NCBI GenBank assembly: GCA_003140075.1
Contig: PLIO01000070.1
Location: 96,042-160,041 of the forward strand
DNA length: 64,000 nucleotides
From: Acidobacteriaceae bacterium
Lineage (GTDB): Bacteria > Acidobacteriota > Terriglobia > Terriglobales > Acidobacteriaceae
Reading direction: 5' to 3'
Position 1 is the stretch's first letter. Every line of letters begins with the position of its first letter. The notes beneath the pieces were generated by a model. It searched no databases. It had not been told where the DNA came from and saw only the letters and a program-made list of their open reading frames with translations. A program made the position numbers and the translations under genes. Shown one piece after another: positions 38,325-49,410 of this stretch.

Positions 38325-39695
38325 TTAAAGAATCACAGATTCGACCGGCAAGCCGGCAACCTGGGGGGAAGGATTTCTGCCTATCCAATGAGCAAGAACG
38401 ATCAGCAACCCGGCGTCGATGGACGCGCGCAGCATCCAAGCCACCGCGGCTCCAGTCACACCGTAGGTCTGAATAAGCCAATACAGGGCGACGGCATAAA
38501 AGGGAAGTTCCACCAGGTTCAACTTCGCCGGGATGTCAGGTCGGCCCAGTCCTTGAAGAAGTGCGAATGGCAAGGCTCCGACCGCCAATGCCAATGTGCC
38601 GACCAGAAGCAACTGGGCAATCCGATAACTGTGCATTGAGAAGTCCGGCCCCAGCCACAGCGAAAGCCCCGGTCTCGCGATCGCGATGAGCACCCCCGTG
38701 AGCGGAAGCAGGAGCGCAAGCAGGTACAAGGTCGTACTGCGATAAAGAGTTCCCAACCGATGGCGATCCTGGGCCGACGAAAGACTAAATGCAGGAAACA
38801 TAACTGCAGAAACCGCGCCGGAGACAATCAACAGTTTGGTAACCACTTCGTACGGAGTCGCGTAGTAGGTAACGGCGGCCGTCGAGACTAAGGCGCCAAT
38901 AACAAAGCGGTCGATGTACAGCATCAGCGGGCCAACGACATTGCTTACGGTCATCCAGCCACCCAGAGAAAAGAGCGACCCTATATGCTGGGGGCGGACC
39001 GCCAGTTCACCCGCTAATGCTGACGATACGCGGAAACAGAGAAGCAGGTGTGCCATCCATCCAGCAATTCTGCCAGCTACGAGGACGACGGTGATTGGGA
39101 AAATATGGTTTGAGAAGGGCAGCACAAGCAGAGGCCCGGCAAAGGTGAATATCCCCATCGGTGTGCGGACCAGGTTGATCAGCCCAAAGGCTTGCTGAGC
39201 CTCCAGGAAGCCGCGCAATCCTGCAGTGCTAATTACAACCGGGATCGAAACGGCGAGAGCATAGAAGGAGTACAGGGCATCACTGCGGATAGCGATTGGA
39301 ATTTTCAATATCCCATAAACCAGCAAATGACTTCCCAGGGCGAATATCGCCGCACCCACCAAACCCAACGCCATCATCATGGTCTGGCTGGTCCAGAATA
39401 GCTCCGGGATCTCCTCTTGCCGGCCGCTTCCCAGCTTCTCAGACACAAGTTTTGTCAAAGCGCGACCCAAACCCAGATCAAACAATCCAGCATATCCAAT
39501 GAGCGTCCAAGCGAGGGCAATCACGCCGAAACGATCTGTGCCCAGTCTATGGATAAGGATGGGAATGGAAACGAAGGCGACCAACAACGGACTTCCCGTT
39601 CCCAACAGATTCCATATTACGTTCCTGACCAGAAGCGGCCCTTGAAGCAAGTAATGATGTTTTGTAGGACTCTCAGTCATGGGAGATGTCGGCAT
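38325..39695 (-). CDS. polysaccharide flippase (Wzx/MATE-like)
   Basis: 456 aa multi-TM; FVSIPILIHRLGTDRFGVIALAWTLIGYAGLFDLGLGRALTKLVSE. Confidence 0.88.
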   Translation of the reverse strand: MPTSPMTESPTKHHYLLQGPLLVRNVIWNLLGTGSPLLVAFVSIPILIHRLGTDRFGVIALAWTLIGYAGLFDLGLGRALTKLVSEKLGSGRQEEIPELFWTSQTMMMALGLVGAAIFALGSHLLVYGILKIPIAIRSDALYSFYALAVSIPVVISTAGLRGFLEAQQAFGLINLVRTPMGIFTFAGPLLVLPFSNHIFPITVVLVAGRIAGWMAHLLLCFRVSSALAGELAVRPQHIGSLFSLGGWMTVSNVVGPLMLYIDRFVIGALVSTAAVTYYATPYEVVTKLLIVSGAVSAVMFPAFSLSSAQDRHRLGTLYRSTTLYLLALLLPLTGVLIAIARPGLSLWLGPDFSMHSYRIAQLLLVGTLALAVGALPFALLQGLGRPDIPAKLNLVELPFYAVALYWLIQTYGVTGAAVAWMLRASIDAGLLIVLAHWIGRNPSPQVAGLPVESVIL

Positions 39696-41049
39696 CTGAC
39701 GCCGGGCCGCTGCCGTGCCCGTTGCGCGAGATCCAGGGAACCTTCCCTTTCAGGCTGGAGACCACTTCCAGGGCAAGAATCTTGCGCGGATCCTGGGGGT
39801 CTGAAGTGTGCCAGGTTGCCGAACCCACGACCCAGGCAATCGAGGCGCAGAAGACGAGAAAACCTCCGAGGATTGTGATGAGCAAGCGCGGCGGAGATGA
39901 TTTTTTCTCCGCAACCTTCGGTCGATCCAGCACTTTGACGCTTGGAGTCTCTTTGGCCTCCTGAATTTTTGCCAGTTCATACTGCTGGGTCAGCAGTTCG
40001 TACACAGTTTCCTGAATCTTGGCGCGGCGGTAGTAATCTGCATATTTCACCCCCAGCAAGGGCAAGTTGCGCAGGCTGGGGTAGGGCATATCAATCGATC
40101 GCGCGTCCAGCGACGCCGCGGTTGCTCTGGAATCGACCAGGGGATCCGATCCAGCCGGCGTGCTTCTCGTGCCGCCCAGCTTTTCCAAGTCTCTCCGCAG
40201 TTCCCCGACCCGGGCGTCAAGGGAGCGAACCCTGGGATTACTGTCGGAATAAATCTGGCGCAAGCCTTCCAGTTCGGATTGCGCGACGATGAGTTCTCCG
40301 GCGAGAGTTCCGGCGGCCTCCAAAGCTGCTTTCCCCATGGTTTGAATGTCGACTGTGCCGCTCTGGCTGGAGAACTGGGCCAGGCCGTTGGAAGCGTCAT
40401 CCAGTTCGTGTTTGGCTACTCTGAGGCGCTCTTCGAGAAACACGCGCTCACGATGTGCGGACGAGGTGGAGAGCTCGGCAATGAGAGAATTCAACTGGTC
40501 CACGTAGGCCCGCGCCAGGGCCGCGGCGCGTTCGGGGCTGCGATCCGTCACACTGATGCTGATGATGCCGCTCTTTCGGTCTTCTGAAATAATCGTGCGC
40601 TCGTCAATATTTGCGCGTGCCTCCTGCTCCAGACGCACACCGTAGACCTTTCTCAAGTCGAATTGCTCGACCAGCCGCGATTGGGCAGCGTCGCTGCGCA
40701 GGATGCCGACAAACAGCGCTCCCGTACTGTTCAAACCCAACAGGTCGGCTGCCATGGATCCCAGGCCGCCCGCGCCTTTTGCCGCCAGCGTTGCCATCAT
40801 GGCGATCCCCGTAGTGGACTGAGTATCAGGCGGCATCAACTGCGCGGTTGAGGTGTAGGTCTTTGGAATCAAGAACGCGAGCAAGGCCGAGGCCGCCAGC
40901 CCAATCGCGGTGGCGCGAACCAGCAGTCGGCGATGATCCCAGAGAAGGCGCAAATGGTCAGCCTGCCAGGCGCGCCGATTCTCCAGCGAAATTTCCTGGA
41001 GTGACAACTCGTCGCGAATCGGGTTCGGTTTGGTAGCAATCAGACTCAT
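39673..41049 (-). CDS. Wzz/GumC-type chain-length determinant protein (no kinase domain)
   Basis: Two terminal TMs, TYTSTAQLMPPD, long coiled coil, DRPKVAEKKSSPPRLLITILGGFL. Confidence 0.9.
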   Translation of the reverse strand: MSLIATKPNPIRDELSLQEISLENRRAWQADHLRLLWDHRRLLVRATAIGLAASALLAFLIPKTYTSTAQLMPPDTQSTTGIAMMATLAAKGAGGLGSMAADLLGLNSTGALFVGILRSDAAQSRLVEQFDLRKVYGVRLEQEARANIDERTIISEDRKSGIISISVTDRSPERAAALARAYVDQLNSLIAELSTSSAHRERVFLEERLRVAKHELDDASNGLAQFSSQSGTVDIQTMGKAALEAAGTLAGELIVAQSELEGLRQIYSDSNPRVRSLDARVGELRRDLEKLGGTRSTPAGSDPLVDSRATAASLDARSIDMPYPSLRNLPLLGVKYADYYRRAKIQETVYELLTQQYELAKIQEAKETPSVKVLDRPKVAEKKSSPPRLLITILGGFLVFCASIAWVVGSATWHTSDPQDPRKILALEVVSSLKGKVPWISRNGHGSGPASDADISHD

Positions 41050-41086: not shown

Positions 41087-43576
41087 TCACTTCCGCCTCT
41101 GCGGCCAATAGCTGAATTCGAGCGAGGCCGCGATATTCGATTGCGGTCCTGTCGCCAGCAGAGGAATCTGCCAGCTTTCGTATTGCAGCTTGCCCGTAAG
41201 TCGCAATCCCGACCCCAACAGAAAATCTGAATTCACCGCGACATCGTTCTGCGTCCCGCCTTGCGGGAGCCATTGCGCATCCACCTTCCGGTGGCGCAGT
41301 TCGATTCCGATTCTCTTCGTCGGGCTCAGCCAATAAGTGCTTCGGACGGATTCACCCTGTGCCGCGCGTCCCAGCCAGGTGCCCATCAGCACGCCATTGT
41401 TGGTGTATCCGTTGAGGTATTGCAAATTGTAGTAGTAGCAGCCATTGCACGTGGGGAAGTTGATTGGACTTGTGGTACCACCTTCGATTCTCAAGTCAAC
41501 CTTGGGAACACTCGGAAGTTTGGCAAGATAGATGCCAGTCTGGAAGGCTGCCTTGTAGGGACGGTTTACTGGGGAAATCTCGTCTGTCTGTAACGCGTCA
41601 ACATAGAAGCTGAGCCAATCGCGCATCCCTGGGATGCGATAGGTGAAATCCAGCCCTGCGTGGCCGCTGCCCAGGGATGATCCGTTCACGTGAACTGCGA
41701 ATGTGCTTTCCCACAGGGTCTTAAACGTCAACGGATTTTGCGGCCCACCGTAAAGGGTTGTCTTGGACGCGCTGATTTCAAAATTCGGCGTGAGCTTCAA
41801 ACTGACTTTGCCGCCGCTCAGAAATGGCTGCTGCGCGAGATTTTTCCCATACTGGCCTATGAGGGCCGGGTTGAGGGAACCTTCTAGAGCCGAGTTATCG
41901 ATGAACTGCTGTCCTGCGACCTGCCCGATGAAGAACTGCATGCGAATATCACCGAAAAGTCCGAGAAAGGAAGGCAGCCGAAAAGGACTGACTCGATTGA
42001 TGATGAACATCTTGTTGAGCGGCTCGGCGTTGTTGGTGAATATCATCGCGCCTTCTTCACCCGGACCCCACCACAGACTCTGTCTGCCAAACGAGAGCTG
42101 CCAGTTGGCCAGATTCATTCCGACATAAGCGTCCAGAAGCTGAAAGCGGCTGATCGCTGCGAACGGCATCGCGGGTGGGTTGGGAGGCAAATGGTCGATC
42201 TCGCTGATAAAATTCAGAGCGGCCGGAGACAACGAAGGAGCGGAGGGAGCCGATTGATACTCGCCGCGCACGTAGATCACGAACGGACCAGCCGTGGTCC
42301 ATCCCGAACTGCCAACGATGCTGTTGAAGCCCTCCTGATATGGCCTTCCATAGTCGTTTAAGATCGTTTGGCCGAAATGAAAATTGTCGGTAAGCGGTTT
42401 GCCCGATATACTCGTGCCTCGTGCATAAACGGACTCAATTTGCGCGTGAACGTTGTCTCCGCTCTCGGTGGCATTGAGTTCGCTTTCAAACTCGCTAGAC
42501 AGTGACCGATAAAGTTCTTGTACTTCCAACGGCCCGTCCGCGCCGGATTGGCGTTCCGACGCTTCGCCCAACAGTCGGGCACACTCGAGGCGGGTCCAGG
42601 GACGCAACCCAAGAATCGTCGTCTTGATGTAGCCCATGGCCGCGAGTCGCTCCAGCGCCGGATAGATCCAGCTATCGAGCGGAACGTACGGCGATCCCAT
42701 GAAAGAAGGGATTCGGGTTGTTGGTTCGTTCACGAATTCGCGGGGCGACTCCCATGATCCGCCGCCGAGTTCGGCATCGTGACGTCTGCTGTAAACACTT
42801 TGGGATACCAGATATCCCAGTACGCCGCCCACGAGCACATCCGAAGGAAAGTGCTGACGCGCGCGAACCCGTGAGAAACTGACAGCCGAAGCCATCCCGT
42901 AGGCGAACAGCTTTGGCCATGTCCCTTGATACTCATGCGCAATCACGCCCGCAATCGACCAGGCGACGGCAGCATGTTCGGAGGGGAACGACGTGCCCCC
43001 CTGAAAAAATGCGCCACTGCCGTTGTCCTGATAGGGCCGCTCCCGGCGGAAGGAGTATTTCAAGGCCTCGGTTGCCAGCAGAGTGTTCACAGCCGCTTCC
43101 CCGGCCAGAAACCCGGTCTCGCGCCAGTGCTCGTTGTGCATTGGGAAGCTGAACAGATAAAGTCCGGCTCCGGCGCCAATCAGGCTTGCCACCCCATAGT
43201 TGGAAACCGTCTTGTAGTGGCTAATGGTTGCGGGATTTTGCGGGAGCGATGCGCTGTACTGGCGATCAGTCACGAAAAGACCTGCCGCGAGTCCGCCGAG
43301 CGGTACCAGCCAGGTTGCGTCCGACAAGCGAACACGCAGGGGACTGGTCCAGATTTGTTTCTGATCGTCGACAAAATCTGAGATGTGGCCTGCGAAACTC
43401 GGCGAATCGCGGGAAGTGATCGCGGGCAAACCGGCCGGGGCCATCTTCACTTCAGAAGGTGTAGACATTTGAGGAGCGATCGTTGGGAAACTGTCTGGCG
43501 GCTTCTCGCTGGTTGCGTCCTGCGCCGCGGCTTTGGGTATCGAAAACGCCAAGCCAGCCGCCAGCAACATCGCCAT
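41087..43576 (-). CDS. fusion: PAP2-family phosphatase plus Wzi-like capsule assembly outer-membrane protein
   Basis: RRERPYQDNGSGAFFQGGTSFPSEHAAVAWSIAGV...SRVRARQHFPSDVLVGGVLGYLVSQ (PAP2), then YVPLDSWIYPALERLAAMGYIKTTILGLRPWTRLECARLL...FGRQSLWWGPGEEGAM (Wzi); likely Met51 start with signal peptide. Confidence 0.88.
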   Translation of the reverse strand: MAMLLAAGLAFSIPKAAAQDATSEKPPDSFPTIAPQMSTPSEVKMAPAGLPAITSRDSPSFAGHISDFVDDQKQIWTSPLRVRLSDATWLVPLGGLAAGLFVTDRQYSASLPQNPATISHYKTVSNYGVASLIGAGAGLYLFSFPMHNEHWRETGFLAGEAAVNTLLATEALKYSFRRERPYQDNGSGAFFQGGTSFPSEHAAVAWSIAGVIAHEYQGTWPKLFAYGMASAVSFSRVRARQHFPSDVLVGGVLGYLVSQSVYSRRHDAELGGGSWESPREFVNEPTTRIPSFMGSPYVPLDSWIYPALERLAAMGYIKTTILGLRPWTRLECARLLGEASERQSGADGPLEVQELYRSLSSEFESELNATESGDNVHAQIESVYARGTSISGKPLTDNFHFGQTILNDYGRPYQEGFNSIVGSSGWTTAGPFVIYVRGEYQSAPSAPSLSPAALNFISEIDHLPPNPPAMPFAAISRFQLLDAYVGMNLANWQLSFGRQSLWWGPGEEGAMIFTNNAEPLNKMFIINRVSPFRLPSFLGLFGDIRMQFFIGQVAGQQFIDNSALEGSLNPALIGQYGKNLAQQPFLSGGKVSLKLTPNFEISASKTTLYGGPQNPLTFKTLWESTFAVHVNGSSLGSGHAGLDFTYRIPGMRDWLSFYVDALQTDEISPVNRPYKAAFQTGIYLAKLPSVPKVDLRIEGGTTSPINFPTCNGCYYYNLQYLNGYTNNGVLMGTWLGRAAQGESVRSTYWLSPTKRIGIELRHRKVDAQWLPQGGTQNDVAVNSDFLLGSGLRLTGKLQYESWQIPLLATGPQSNIAASLEFSYWPQRRK

Positions 43577-43613
43577 GAGTCTTGTCCTGATCCGCAAATC
43601 TGCAGCTCCGGTG

Positions 43614-46600
43614 TTAGGGATGGATGTAAGCCACAGTAAGAGCCGCTGAGGACGCAACCTGCGCGGCCTGCATGAGCGTCGCCCAATTTCGCGGAGCAAG
43701 CCTGGGCGCCTTCTCTGGCACGACAATCGAGTCTCCCGGCTTCAATACGGCGCTGAGCGGATCACCCATCCAGAACTCCGAGACATTCCTGGCGGAAAGT
43801 ACGGAGCCGTCGGCCCGCACAACGAAGATCCCGCTCCGATCCGCGATTTGAGTCAGTCCGCCGGACTGGCTCAAATACCACTTGGCACTTCTGCCCGGAA
43901 TATAGCTGACCGCGGTGGGATTGAAGACCTGGCCGCTAACGGTCACGTAGTCCGCTTTCTTGGGAATAATGAGTACGTCCCCGTCTCGCAGGGGAATATC
44001 CGACGCCGTCTTCGCCAGCCGTTTAAGGTCCGAGGGAATGTGGATCACAACGCGTCCAACCGGTGCCGTCGCCTCGAGTTGTTGGAGCGCCGTATCGGTC
44101 TGGGCGATGGCAGTGAGTTTCGCTTCTTTCTGGTCAGCATCGCCGTCCGGCATAGCCTTCAGGTAACCCTGCTCTGCTTTGAGTCGGTTTACCAATTCCA
44201 AATGGGATTTCATTTCCAGGTCTCGAACTTCCTGACGGAGCAGCACAGCTCCGTAAGGAAAGGCTTCAGCGGTGAAACCATTGCAGCGCATCAGCAGCGA
44301 GCTGAGACGCTCGTCCGGCTGAATCCCGTATGTGGCAGGATGCTGCACTTCTCCCTTCACCGTGACGGACGCTCCCAGATCGCTCCATTGCGGAATCTGC
44401 CGAATGGCCAGAACATCTCCATTGCGCAACGTAATGTTTTCGTTGACATCACTCGACCGTGCGGCCTCCAGCTTCACCTCAAGATGTTCGCCGACGCCGT
44501 TGCCGGCCGCGAATCGCGTAAGATCGGCGCTGCCGGCAAATGCGCTTCGCTTGAGTCCGCCCGCGACCCGAATCAGGTCTTCAACCCGCATGTCGGTGGT
44601 CAGCGGATAGCGCCCAGGCTTCGCGACTTCACCTTTGATGTCGACGGTTGGAGCATCCACTTTGGCCAGGTTGCGGTGCACCAGCAGGCGATCCCGCGCC
44701 TGCAAAATGACGTCGTCCACCGGATTCCCCGCGAGGGCTTCGCGCAAATCCACACTCAAAATCCTCATGGTGCCGTCGGCTTGATTGCGGAACAACTGGG
44801 CGGAATCAAGCGCCGCATCCGGTGTAATTCCGCCGGCCAGAAAAATCGCATCGCGCAAATGAGCCTGACCGGATGTGCGATACGAACCGGGCCGATGGAC
44901 CTCACCGCCCACCCACACTTCGGGCGGAGCCTCAAAATCGTAGCGGCTAAAGATTCGCACCGTGTCTAAGGGCTTCAGGGCCGGAGCTGTCGCCGGGTTT
45001 GCCAGTGCACTCGAGATGTCAAAGCTTTCGACGCTGGGATGAAAATCCGGAGGATTCAGGCGGATGATTTCCGCATAATGAGGCGCGGGTTCGGGGAGAA
45101 GATCGCCATACGATGAAATGAGGTCTGTCAATTTCATTCCCGGCTTGTAGGAATAGCGGCCCGGGCGTAAGACGTGCCCCTGAAGGTAAATGGCATCCTC
45201 GTTATATGCGGCGATCGGAAAGATGTGCACTTGATCGCCGTCGCGAATCTTGAAAGCCTGCAGCTGCTGGTTGACATCCGCAGGATCAGCGATCGAGGGC
45301 AGGTCCAGGGTCAGCATGGTGCGCTTTTCGTGGGCTTCGAGCCGCTGCACTTCGATATGGCGCAACGCCGCAGCCGGCAGGATTCCACCGGCCAGTTCCA
45401 GGACTTCGGCCAGCGAAGTCTCATCCAGCAGTTCATATACTGCGGGGCGGCGCACCATCCCTTCTACTGTCGCCTGAGGTCCAATCGGCGGTACAAGTAA
45501 AGTGTCGCCATTTTCCAGCCGCTTTAAGTCGGAGCGGAGGCCGTGCAGAAGCAGGTCATAGGCGTCCACCTGCTCTACAAGTTGCTTGCCGCGGAAGTGC
45601 CTGAGGGAGCGCAAGGATCCCCGTCCCGTGATCCCTCCAGCGGCAAACAGCGCGTTCAGCGGAGTTGATAGCGAACTGATGTCATATGCACCCGGTTGCG
45701 CGACCTCTCCGACCACATAGACGCGCACCGTTCGCAGGCGGGAAACCGACACATCGGCGGACACATCCCGGAACGCAGTCCTGAGCGCACGCTGAACTTC
45801 CAGCTGCACATCACCGAGATTCTTGCCGGTTACCAGCACCGGACCGGTCTCCGGCAGCGCGATCCGCCCCTCCCGATCGACCAGGCGAACCAGTCGCTGG
45901 GTGACGCTGCCCCACACATCGATAGACAAACTGTCGCCCGTTCCCACCACATAGTCAGGCCCCACAGGCAGGTCCATTGGAATCGTGTCCGGCTGGTTTA
46001 TCGTGTTGCGGAATATTTCCGAGCCGAACCGCTCCGCCGGACGCTGCCAGGCAGACGCCTGCACGTACATATCGTAGAGCGAAGGGACGTCGGCATAAGG
46101 ATTGGCCGGACGCACCATTTTCACAGGCGTCACATCTTCTTCCCGTTCCATGGGTCTGGGCCGCTCCCAGTTCGAACGCATGGACTGTGCGGGAATGTCG
46201 TTTCTGGCGCTTCCTTCACGTGAACCGGCTCTGTCGCCGTAGGGGCGGCTGCTCCGCCCCGTAGACAAGTCGTCGAGTGCGGGCATGGCGGAACCTTGAG
46301 AACCGTACGGTAAGTCGGCGCCGGACTTGATCGAGTTGGACGCCAACTCGATCTTAGGGGTGGACATCTGGTCCCGCAGGCCAAGCTCATCGGTTGAAAG
46401 GTCGGTCCGCAGCGTACTCGTCGGAGGGGCCGAAGGTTGCGTATCGGGCGATCCCGGATTTGTGTCCGGAATCGACGGCTCGTTCTCCAGTGCACCGTTA
46501 GACTGACGATTCCGCGCGCCAGTTTTTTCGCAATCGCTGTCTTGTTTAGGATTACAGGTTGTGGTGCGCTCCACCCGTTGTTCTTGATCGTTCCTTTCCG

Positions 46601-47114
46601 GCCGCAGGGATTCGCTATCTTCTTGCGCTTCAATCTGCACCAAACGCCGTGCGCGTTCCTTCAGGACAAATTCCTCTTCTTTGGCGAAGTTCGAATCCGG
46701 ATTTGGCGATGGCAGCAAGTACCCATACCGCTGGAGCAGTCGAGTCGCGACCGAACGAAAGGCGACATCTCGATCAAGACGGTCGAATATGGCCTGGTCG
46801 GATAGATTCGAGTCTTCCACGACCTGTCCGTTGTCAGTGGCTTCCTTGGCTACCCCTTCCTTTAACTCCACCAACAGCCCTGCATCCTTGACGAGCACTG
46901 CCCTGATCTGCACCGAAGACGCCGCCACACGATTGAGGTTGTCTTTTGCAAGGTCGGACAACCCGGCCGCGCGATTCCCCTGAGCATTGCCTTGCTGGGT
47001 ACCGGCACGTCCGTTCATTTGGCCGTACATGAACGGGCAGAGGATGAGCGCTACCACGCCAACTGCTGATCTCCCGAGCAACTTCTTGGAGATGAACGAC
47101 AAGGTTAGACTCAC
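43614..47114 (-). CDS. Wza-like polysaccharide export protein with many SLBB domains
   Basis: 1166 aa; PVGPDYVVGTGDSLSIDVWGSVTQRLVRLVDREGRIALPETGPVLVTGKNLGDVQLEVQRAL; repeated VxGEVxxPGxY SLBB motifs. Confidence 0.93.
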   Translation of the reverse strand: MSLTLSFISKKLLGRSAVGVVALILCPFMYGQMNGRAGTQQGNAQGNRAAGLSDLAKDNLNRVAASSVQIRAVLVKDAGLLVELKEGVAKEATDNGQVVEDSNLSDQAIFDRLDRDVAFRSVATRLLQRYGYLLPSPNPDSNFAKEEEFVLKERARRLVQIEAQEDSESLRPERNDQEQRVERTTTCNPKQDSDCEKTGARNRQSNGALENEPSIPDTNPGSPDTQPSAPPTSTLRTDLSTDELGLRDQMSTPKIELASNSIKSGADLPYGSQGSAMPALDDLSTGRSSRPYGDRAGSREGSARNDIPAQSMRSNWERPRPMEREEDVTPVKMVRPANPYADVPSLYDMYVQASAWQRPAERFGSEIFRNTINQPDTIPMDLPVGPDYVVGTGDSLSIDVWGSVTQRLVRLVDREGRIALPETGPVLVTGKNLGDVQLEVQRALRTAFRDVSADVSVSRLRTVRVYVVGEVAQPGAYDISSLSTPLNALFAAGGITGRGSLRSLRHFRGKQLVEQVDAYDLLLHGLRSDLKRLENGDTLLVPPIGPQATVEGMVRRPAVYELLDETSLAEVLELAGGILPAAALRHIEVQRLEAHEKRTMLTLDLPSIADPADVNQQLQAFKIRDGDQVHIFPIAAYNEDAIYLQGHVLRPGRYSYKPGMKLTDLISSYGDLLPEPAPHYAEIIRLNPPDFHPSVESFDISSALANPATAPALKPLDTVRIFSRYDFEAPPEVWVGGEVHRPGSYRTSGQAHLRDAIFLAGGITPDAALDSAQLFRNQADGTMRILSVDLREALAGNPVDDVILQARDRLLVHRNLAKVDAPTVDIKGEVAKPGRYPLTTDMRVEDLIRVAGGLKRSAFAGSADLTRFAAGNGVGEHLEVKLEAARSSDVNENITLRNGDVLAIRQIPQWSDLGASVTVKGEVQHPATYGIQPDERLSSLLMRCNGFTAEAFPYGAVLLRQEVRDLEMKSHLELVNRLKAEQGYLKAMPDGDADQKEAKLTAIAQTDTALQQLEATAPVGRVVIHIPSDLKRLAKTASDIPLRDGDVLIIPKKADYVTVSGQVFNPTAVSYIPGRSAKWYLSQSGGLTQIADRSGIFVVRADGSVLSARNVSEFWMGDPLSAVLKPGDSIVVPEKAPRLAPRNWATLMQAAQVASSAALTVAYIHP

Positions 47115-47698
47115 ATAGCCTCCAGATCAGCCTCATCCACTTCGACGGCTACCGAGCGCATGATCAGGTCGATCGAAAAAATAACGCGGCAACGGTCTTT
47201 CCTGCGCACGATGATGCCCTCCAATCCCTGCATGGGGCCGCTACGTACCCGCACTCGCCGTCCAGCGCGCAGATAGGGATGCGGTTCGATCCTCAAACCG
47301 TCAGACAGCCGGCGTTGCAACGCTTCGACTTCGTCACTCGGCAAGGCGGCGGGTTGTCCGTTGAATGACACGAGTCGTACGACGCCGGGCAACTGGAGAA
47401 CCTGCAACCTGTTCTCGAGTGCCATGCGGACGAACACGTAACCGGGAAACAGGGCCAGCTCTAATTCCTTGCGGCGGTCCTTCCAGCGCCGCACCGAGCG
47501 GTATAGGGGAAGGAAGCAGGAGAAACTGCGCCGTTTGATTTGTTCGGCTACGCGCTTCTCGTGGCGCGGAAAAGTGTAAAGGGCATACCAGTCCGCTCTG
47601 CGGGGAGCCTCAGGCGCCAGCGCTGGTACCTCCACTCCGATGGTTAGCGACATCACGCTCATTCCTTCACCACGCTGGCCGTAGCTTCGCCCCCTCAC
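47111..47698 (-). CDS. UpxY/NusG-RfaH-like transcription antiterminator
   Basis: WYALYTFPRHEKRVAEQIKRR...LFPGYVFVRM...GRRVRVRSGPMQGLEGIIVRRKDRCRVIFSIDLIMRSVAVEVDEADLE; 4-nt overlap with the Wza-like gene. Confidence 0.92.
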   Translation of the reverse strand: MRGRSYGQRGEGMSVMSLTIGVEVPALAPEAPRRADWYALYTFPRHEKRVAEQIKRRSFSCFLPLYRSVRRWKDRRKELELALFPGYVFVRMALENRLQVLQLPGVVRLVSFNGQPAALPSDEVEALQRRLSDGLRIEPHPYLRAGRRVRVRSGPMQGLEGIIVRRKDRCRVIFSIDLIMRSVAVEVDEADLEAM

Positions 47699-47780: not shown

Positions 47781-48159
47781 CTAAACTGACGCCAAACCAA
47801 CCACGGCTGGCCGCTGCCGGACTGCATTCAGAATGCCAGCCTCCGAGCTTTCCAGGGGTTTGCAACGGATGTCGACGATTGCCCAGTAAAAGAGGGCACG
47901 GTTTTGTTCCGGAGCCAGCGCAAGAATCCTCATCTCCGGGTAGCGTCCAAGCAAGAACCCGCACTGGACACGATGTTTCTCCCGATCGTCCATGGCAAGA
48001 ATTAGCACGTCCGGTCGAACTTGTTCGACTGCTTCGGTGACGTCATCCTGGTTGCCAACTTCCCCGACTAACTCGATGTCGGGCTGATCGGCGATGGTGG
48101 TCATGATGAGTTCCCTCATCAGGCGAGGTTGATTGGCAACCAGCACGCGGACTCGCTTC
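47781..48159 (-). CDS. stand-alone degenerate receiver-domain protein
   Basis: RVRVLVANQPRLMRELIMTTIADQPDIELVGEVGNQDDVTEAVEQVRPDVLILAMDDREK...; no HTH; ORF extends to 48221. Confidence 0.65.
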
Positions 48160-48292
48160 ACATGGTTTCTCCGACGCTGAACGTGAGGGCAGAGTATCGC
48201 TTCTATGCTCCGCATCCGCAAGGTTCAAAAGAGATCTATCCTGAGGCTGGGTTTGAACAAGGACACGTAAGTAGCAGGATTCCGATGCTGGC

Positions 48293-48340
48293 GTACTAAG
48301 ACAGTACCGAACCAGTACCAAAGCAGTACCGCCAAGTACC
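48293..48340. repeat. five helically phased GTAC motifs (AGTACC repeats)
   Basis: GTAC at 48293, 48304, 48315, 48326 and 48336 (spacing 11, 11, 11, 10 bp); last four within (C/A)AGTACC. Confidence 0.75.
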
Positions 48341-48644
48341 TACCTTGTTGTCACCTCCCAGAAGGGGAACAAATGCTTCAAGCTTGAATTATGTAACGCA
48401 CACCACTTGACGCGACGTGCCGCGCGTGTAAACTTGGTCATTCCCCGCTACACAATTAAAGGATTGTCCGGAGCTTCGTATCTTTTGTCATTCTTAGCTT
48501 CTTGAGCAACTTTTCTTCGGGATTGGAGTTACATGGAAACAAGAGAGAGCATAGCTCAACTCTTGCCATAGAGATGATCCGGATCAGAGGTAGCGGCGGG
48601 TCCGAGTTTCAGGATTTAGCAAAGACTGTATTCGACGCATCGTA

Positions 48645-48726: not shown

Positions 48727-49410
48727 ATGGTGACCAGGGAGTGCCCGATGGAACCACAACCAGTTGCCGAAGTTTTTCTTCTGGCTGAAAACCGGCTGCT
48801 CCGTGAAGCGCTGATCCGGATCCTCACCAAGAAGACTGATATCCGCGTCGTGGGCGCTGCCCCATATTCGCCGGCCACGCTGGAACGGATCATTGCCACC
48901 CGCCCCGGGGTTGTTCTGCTGGATTCCGTCGGTCCGGTGTTTTCCGACGACAGACTTGTGTCCGCCCTGCACGCTGCGGTTCCCGGTGTGAGGGTCGCCA
49001 TGATCGACATGGATCTCGATCAGCACACCTTTTTGAGAGCCGTCCGCGAGGGCGTAGTTGGATACGTCTTAAAGGATGCTTCGGCCACGGAAGTGGCGGG
49101 CATGATCCGCGCGATTGCCATGGGAGAGGCAGTGTGCCCGCCGCTTCTATCCATGGCTCTATTCCAGGTGGTCCGGCAGCATCTCTTCGCCGGAGCCGCG
49201 AGCCGGGTATTAAGCCGAAGGGAGCAGCAACTGGTGACGCTGCTGCGTGAGCGGCTAACGAACAAGGAGATTGCGGCGCGGTTAAACCTGTCGGAGCAGA
49301 CGGTGAAAAACCACGTACATCGAATGTTGCGAAAGGTCGGAGCGCAAGACCGCGTGGCCATCGTCGAGCGCTGCGAGTTGGAAGGTCTTGGTGAAAACCT
49401 GGCTTCTTGA
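48727..49410 (+). CDS. NarL/LuxR-type response regulator
   Basis: Receiver-like N-terminus; LSRREQQLVTLLRERLTNKEIAARLNLSEQTVKNHVHRMLRKVGAQDRVAIV LuxR HTH; possible start at 48748 (MEPQPVAEV). Confidence 0.9.
   Translation: MVTRECPMEPQPVAEVFLLAENRLLREALIRILTKKTDIRVVGAAPYSPATLERIIATRPGVVLLDSVGPVFSDDRLVSALHAAVPGVRVAMIDMDLDQHTFLRAVREGVVGYVLKDASATEVAGMIRAIAMGEAVCPPLLSMALFQVVRQHLFAGAASRVLSRREQQLVTLLRERLTNKEIAARLNLSEQTVKNHVHRMLRKVGAQDRVAIVERCELEGLGENLAS

Follow-up and report, generated by a model that had tools for sequence, protein, structure and literature searches.

A helically phased GTAC array as a probable enhancer-like operator of an exopolysaccharide operon in Acidobacteriaceae

Five GTAC-centered units spaced at one helical turn (48292..48342, minus strand) were found in the window, by which we mean the whole 64,000-nucleotide stretch of Acidobacteriaceae DNA that was analyzed. 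The array lies between a gene for a NarL-type response regulator (48748-49410, plus strand) and a minus-strand operon for a pseudo-receiver, a UpxY-family protein, and polysaccharide export. Its phasing and its register with the promoter are conserved among relatives where the sequence itself diverges. Sequence comparisons suggest that the array is probably a cooperative, enhancer-like operator through which the NarL-type regulator switches on the exopolysaccharide (EPS) operon.

The GTAC starts are at 48293, 48304, 48315, 48326, and 48336 (spacings of 11, 11, 11, and 10 bp), and at the last four sites (48304, 48315, 48326, and 48336) GTAC is contained in AGTACC. Read on the operon strand, the five units are TAGGTACT (48342-48335), GCGGTACT (48332-48325), TTGGTACT (48321-48314), TCGGTACT (48310-48303), and TTAGTACG (48299-48292). 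They are of the type TTRGTACY, in which the core RGTACY is itself palindromic and the flanking TT gives the unit its orientation. A sixth, degenerate unit, CTGCTACT (48270..48277, minus strand; CTACT, core at 48271), lies on the operon side at 22 bp, or two turns, from the array.

The five sites and spacings described in the original prediction were confirmed in the sequence and are far beyond chance. When the window was simulated 300 times with a first-order Markov model, the longest chain of GTAC sites at 10–12 bp had three members and occurred once, compared to five in the window. The array was placed at a single locus: pattern searches of the whole 5.77-Mb genome for AGTACCN5AGTACC returned two overlapping matches, both in this array, and the reversed control returned none.

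Phasing was compared upstream of pseudo-receiver orthologs at 21 loci of the genus, which includes Candidatus Sulfotelmatobacter. Adjacent GTAC sites were 10–13 bp apart in 41 of 76 spacings and 21–25 bp apart in another 21, and none of the 76 fell between 14 and 20 bp. Loss of the phasing in close relatives had been named as an outcome that would speak against the array; instead, GTAC recurred and the phasing was kept while the sequence between the sites had diverged and was not alignable. When 35 loci belonging to the genus and to other families were pooled, periodicity scored 0.56 at 11.5 bp, compared to a null maximum of 0.185 from 2000 random placements. GTAC was the most over-represented of the 256 tetramers upstream of the pseudo-receiver gene, both within the genus (97 vs. 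18.9 expected) and at 51 loci outside it (146 vs. 31.2 expected). Outside the genus the phasing was looser, with 30 of 98 spacings at 10–13 bp, 19 at 21–25 bp, and 15 at 14–20 bp, a spread that weighs against activation by a NarL-type regulator. That the sites clustered by chance, or form a curvature element that no protein binds in a sequence-specific way, is hardly credible. Helical phasing alone would fit curvature, but it is GTAC, rather than A-tracts, that shows enrichment at this position across dozens of species, five-unit chains never appeared in the simulations, and the conservation already contradicts this reading.

An alignment of 19 loci revealed a conserved box, TAGATCNTTTTTGAACCTTG (48219..48237, minus strand), ~50–70 bp before the pseudo-receiver start. 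The box lies just upstream of a −35-like hexamer and overlaps it, with TTGYNN at the box end. The promoter-like layout in relatives is TTGYNN, 17 bp, and then GATACT or TATGCT; in the window, the pair TTGCGG–17 bp–GATACT (48193..48221, minus strand) has weak hexamers and a fixed distance from the box. Because a scan for sigma-70 consensus promoters did not call this pair, we infer from its conservation that it is the operon promoter. Relative to the box, the GTAC lattice falls near −44, −55, −66, −77, −88, −100, and −111, spanning ~44–120 bp. The degenerate unit CTGCTACT occupies the promoter-proximal place at about −44, where many relatives have GTAC. The box-anchored concentration R of 100 GTAC sites was 0.56 at 11.3 bp, which was equaled by 0 of 5000 controls in which the internal GTAC spacing of each locus was kept and its offset from the box was shifted at random. 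The GTAC sites are in register with the promoter box and therefore lie on the same face as each other and relative to the promoter.

This arrangement also bears on the idea that the array is a transcribed, ops-like leader element to which the UpxY antiterminator is recruited as elongation proceeds. One unit reads GGCGGTAC on the operon strand and resembles ops. UpxY-type factors can indeed act on their own operon (PMC7593976). However, the conserved box and the −35/−10 pair separate the array from the gene, and since the promoter-like pair sits between the array and the pseudo-receiver gene, the array would not be transcribed from that pair. Helical phasing and promoter register point to binding of double-stranded DNA, and a search for Rfam RNA elements at the array gave no match. 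A leader element is thus a very improbable reading.

The first gene of the operon (47781..48161, minus strand) encodes a stand-alone protein of 126 aa, which the original prediction called a stand-alone receiver. It does stand alone, but ortholog alignment and fold search identified it as a degenerate pseudo-receiver rather than a canonical receiver: the phospho-acceptor Asp is missing in all 14 aligned orthologs, and VAN replaces the acidic pocket. A Pfam search of the 126-aa protein gave no match; its structural model (mean pLDDT 80) retrieved the receivers of CheB, NarL, and DosR over ~80 residues. The second gene encodes a UpxY-family NusG paralog, the antiterminator (47111..47653, minus strand; NCBIfam NF033644, 121.6 bits, cut-off 100). 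It is followed on the same strand by genes for an SLBB/Poly_export polysaccharide export protein (43614..47114), a PAP2 and Wzi capsule assembly protein (41087..43600), Wzz (39673-41049), a flippase (38325-39695), and then glycosyltransferases. The order receiver–UpxY–SLBB–Wzi–Wzz was repeated in most of the genus loci examined. At two loci (L022, G010 C368; L023, G030 C161), the pseudo-receiver frame keeps only its first ~57 residues before unrelated sequence, with the change at the same place in both genomes and a GHMP-kinase-like frame in L022; both loci retain the promoter box and GTAC sites. In the nearest relative (G012), the regulator gene is flanked on its other side by another gene for a UpxY-like NusG paralog (L063 7162-7638).

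The array looks like an operator with one target, rather than a regulon motif, because it was found at the pseudo-receiver gene in 12 of the 13 genus genomes having a three-unit array, and occurrences at other places were no more frequent than in the control. Three-unit arrays at other places (one in G026 C6, preceding a peroxiredoxin gene, and one in G068 C116) were rare and did not exceed the reversed-pattern control, and a global regulon motif was rejected. The former (L080 5794-5822) consists of GTACTAATCGCG three times in tandem just before the peroxiredoxin gene and is the only other three-unit array found in G026. We assigned the array to the operon and rejected an operator of the divergent gene because the divergent neighbor varies between species and the array stays with the pseudo-receiver. 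An autoregulatory operator was likewise rejected, as regulator genes without a neighboring pseudo-receiver had no arrays beside them. The original prediction had offered a cooperative array or an iteron-like operator. The comparative evidence upholds an operator array before the receiver and EPS antiterminator genes; a replication-type iteron was discarded, since the array is flanked by a regulator gene and an EPS operon and no initiator gene was present among the neighboring genes examined.

The regulator gene named earlier (48727-49410; 48748..49410 in our analysis, plus strand) is the best candidate for encoding the array binder, as suggested by its co-occurrence and linkage with the pseudo-receiver. 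Its product is a NarL/FixJ (LuxR-HTH) response regulator, matching the Pfam family GerE with its C-terminal HTH at 54.4 bits (cut-off 23.5) and Response_reg with its N-terminal receiver at 29.5, just under the cut-off of 30.2. It aligns over its full length with DevR and VraR, and of the proteins with solved structures, DevR/DosR, VraR, and NarL are the most closely related to it. The acceptor aspartate is present (VVLLDSV, compared to VAVLDVR in DevR), and the usual acidic pair DD is AE here. Among 299 genomes of the class, the pseudo-receiver was found in 53, the NarL/DosR-type regulator in 52, and both in 46; this co-occurrence is clade-structured, and the proximity of the two genes could reflect common inheritance. 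In the stretches fetched, 40 of 55 loci had the regulator 0.2–0.8 kb from the pseudo-receiver, in codirectional or divergent orientation, and the array lay between the two genes. One genome (G018) has the pseudo-receiver and promoter box, with no regulator detected and GTAC absent, a single case that is weakly suggestive because the draft is 86% complete. At four loci (L228, L230, L231, and L264) the regulator adjoins the pseudo-receiver, yet there are 0 or 1 GTAC sites. L264 (G011 C55) is a second pseudo-receiver copy whose one GTAC is distant; another second copy, L116 (SRVP_4), has four GTAC.

Which protein binds the array is the least secure part of this reading. The array may instead be the operator of a different protein, such as a ring-forming or head-to-tail regulator whose gene lies elsewhere, with the NarL-type neighbor acting otherwise. 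Direct repeats at 11 bp are used by OmpR/PhoB-type and ring-type binders. The NarL-type regulator is unlinked in several array-keeping genomes, being tens of kilobases off or on another contig (G014, G026, G031, G003, and others), and, as noted above, its homologs lack an adjoining array where the pseudo-receiver is not a neighbor. Against a different binder, the NarL-type gene tracks the pseudo-receiver and adjoins the array in both orientations. RemA was rejected as the binder, with 0 matches to PF04025 in the genome. Taken together, we consider another binder unlikely, though appreciable enough to be weighed, and binding by the NarL-type regulator remains the preferred reading.

We infer from sequence and its comparison which protein binds, that it binds cooperatively, and that it activates. 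In the proposed mechanism, the array would control the pseudo-receiver/UpxY/EPS operon from upstream as an enhancer-like operator, and the linked regulator would bind its units side by side and cooperatively. The filled row of sites would let the regulator contact or wrap the weak promoter, switching the operon on, and UpxY, the product of the second gene, would then help RNA polymerase to continue along the whole length of the operon, which is long. The position of the array, ~85–165 bp ahead of the presumed start, and the weak −35/−10 hexamers favor activation over repression. A more speculative extension, which we regard as rather doubtful, is an EPS switch specific to Acidobacteriota in which the lattice acts as a graded enhancer and the pseudo-receiver exerts feedback on the regulator, or on UpxY, through mimicry or capping of a receiver dimer.

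Exopolysaccharide is thought to be important for the persistence of Acidobacteriota in soil, and the literature searched contained no account of EPS regulation in this group. No fitting example emerged when the literature was searched for EPS operons with phased LuxR/NarL arrays or for EPS regulators of Acidobacteria. The present work names a concrete operator, a likely regulator, and a target operon for EPS in soil Acidobacteriota, and the TTRGTACY motif is open to in vitro testing with two purified components.

Several known systems resemble parts of this arrangement. In Bacillus, RemA is an oligomeric protein that binds repeats upstream of an EPS operon. The RemA-bound eps promoter is similar to the present one in having repeats upstream of an EPS operon, but the genome studied here is without a RemA-family gene. 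In the UpxY capsule operons of Bacteroides, as here, a UpxY-family antiterminator is encoded within the polysaccharide operon that it presumably serves. Unlike in Bacteroides, the operon here is preceded by a phased operator, a pseudo-receiver gene takes the place in which one might expect UpxZ, and the phylum is Acidobacteriota.

The regulators closest to the candidate binder offer a further comparison. The HTH sequence TVKNHVHR of the regulator resembles TVKNYVSR of DosR, and the Dev-box half-site GGGACT resembles GGTACT. DevR/DosR promoters, like the one described here, combine a NarL-subfamily regulator with several sites, and DevR has been shown to bind cooperatively to multiple, closely packed sites (PMC3029386). 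At narG, NarL acts as an activator from upstream sites (−89 and −195) that do not have the 7-2-7 arrangement, and the NarL heptamer TACCCCT has TACC in common with the unit (PMC4549865). In contrast to the array, no regular one-turn lattice was described at narG, and NarL prefers inverted 7-2-7 pairs. We therefore did not class the array as a typical NarL site, since its direct TTRGTACY repeats at ~11 bp differ from inverted heptamers 2 bp apart, a layout that also counts against activation by a NarL-type regulator. Dev boxes are dimer sites, the promoter-proximal one overlapping the −35 element, whereas the units here are single and oriented, are repeated at one helical turn, and end well upstream of the −35.
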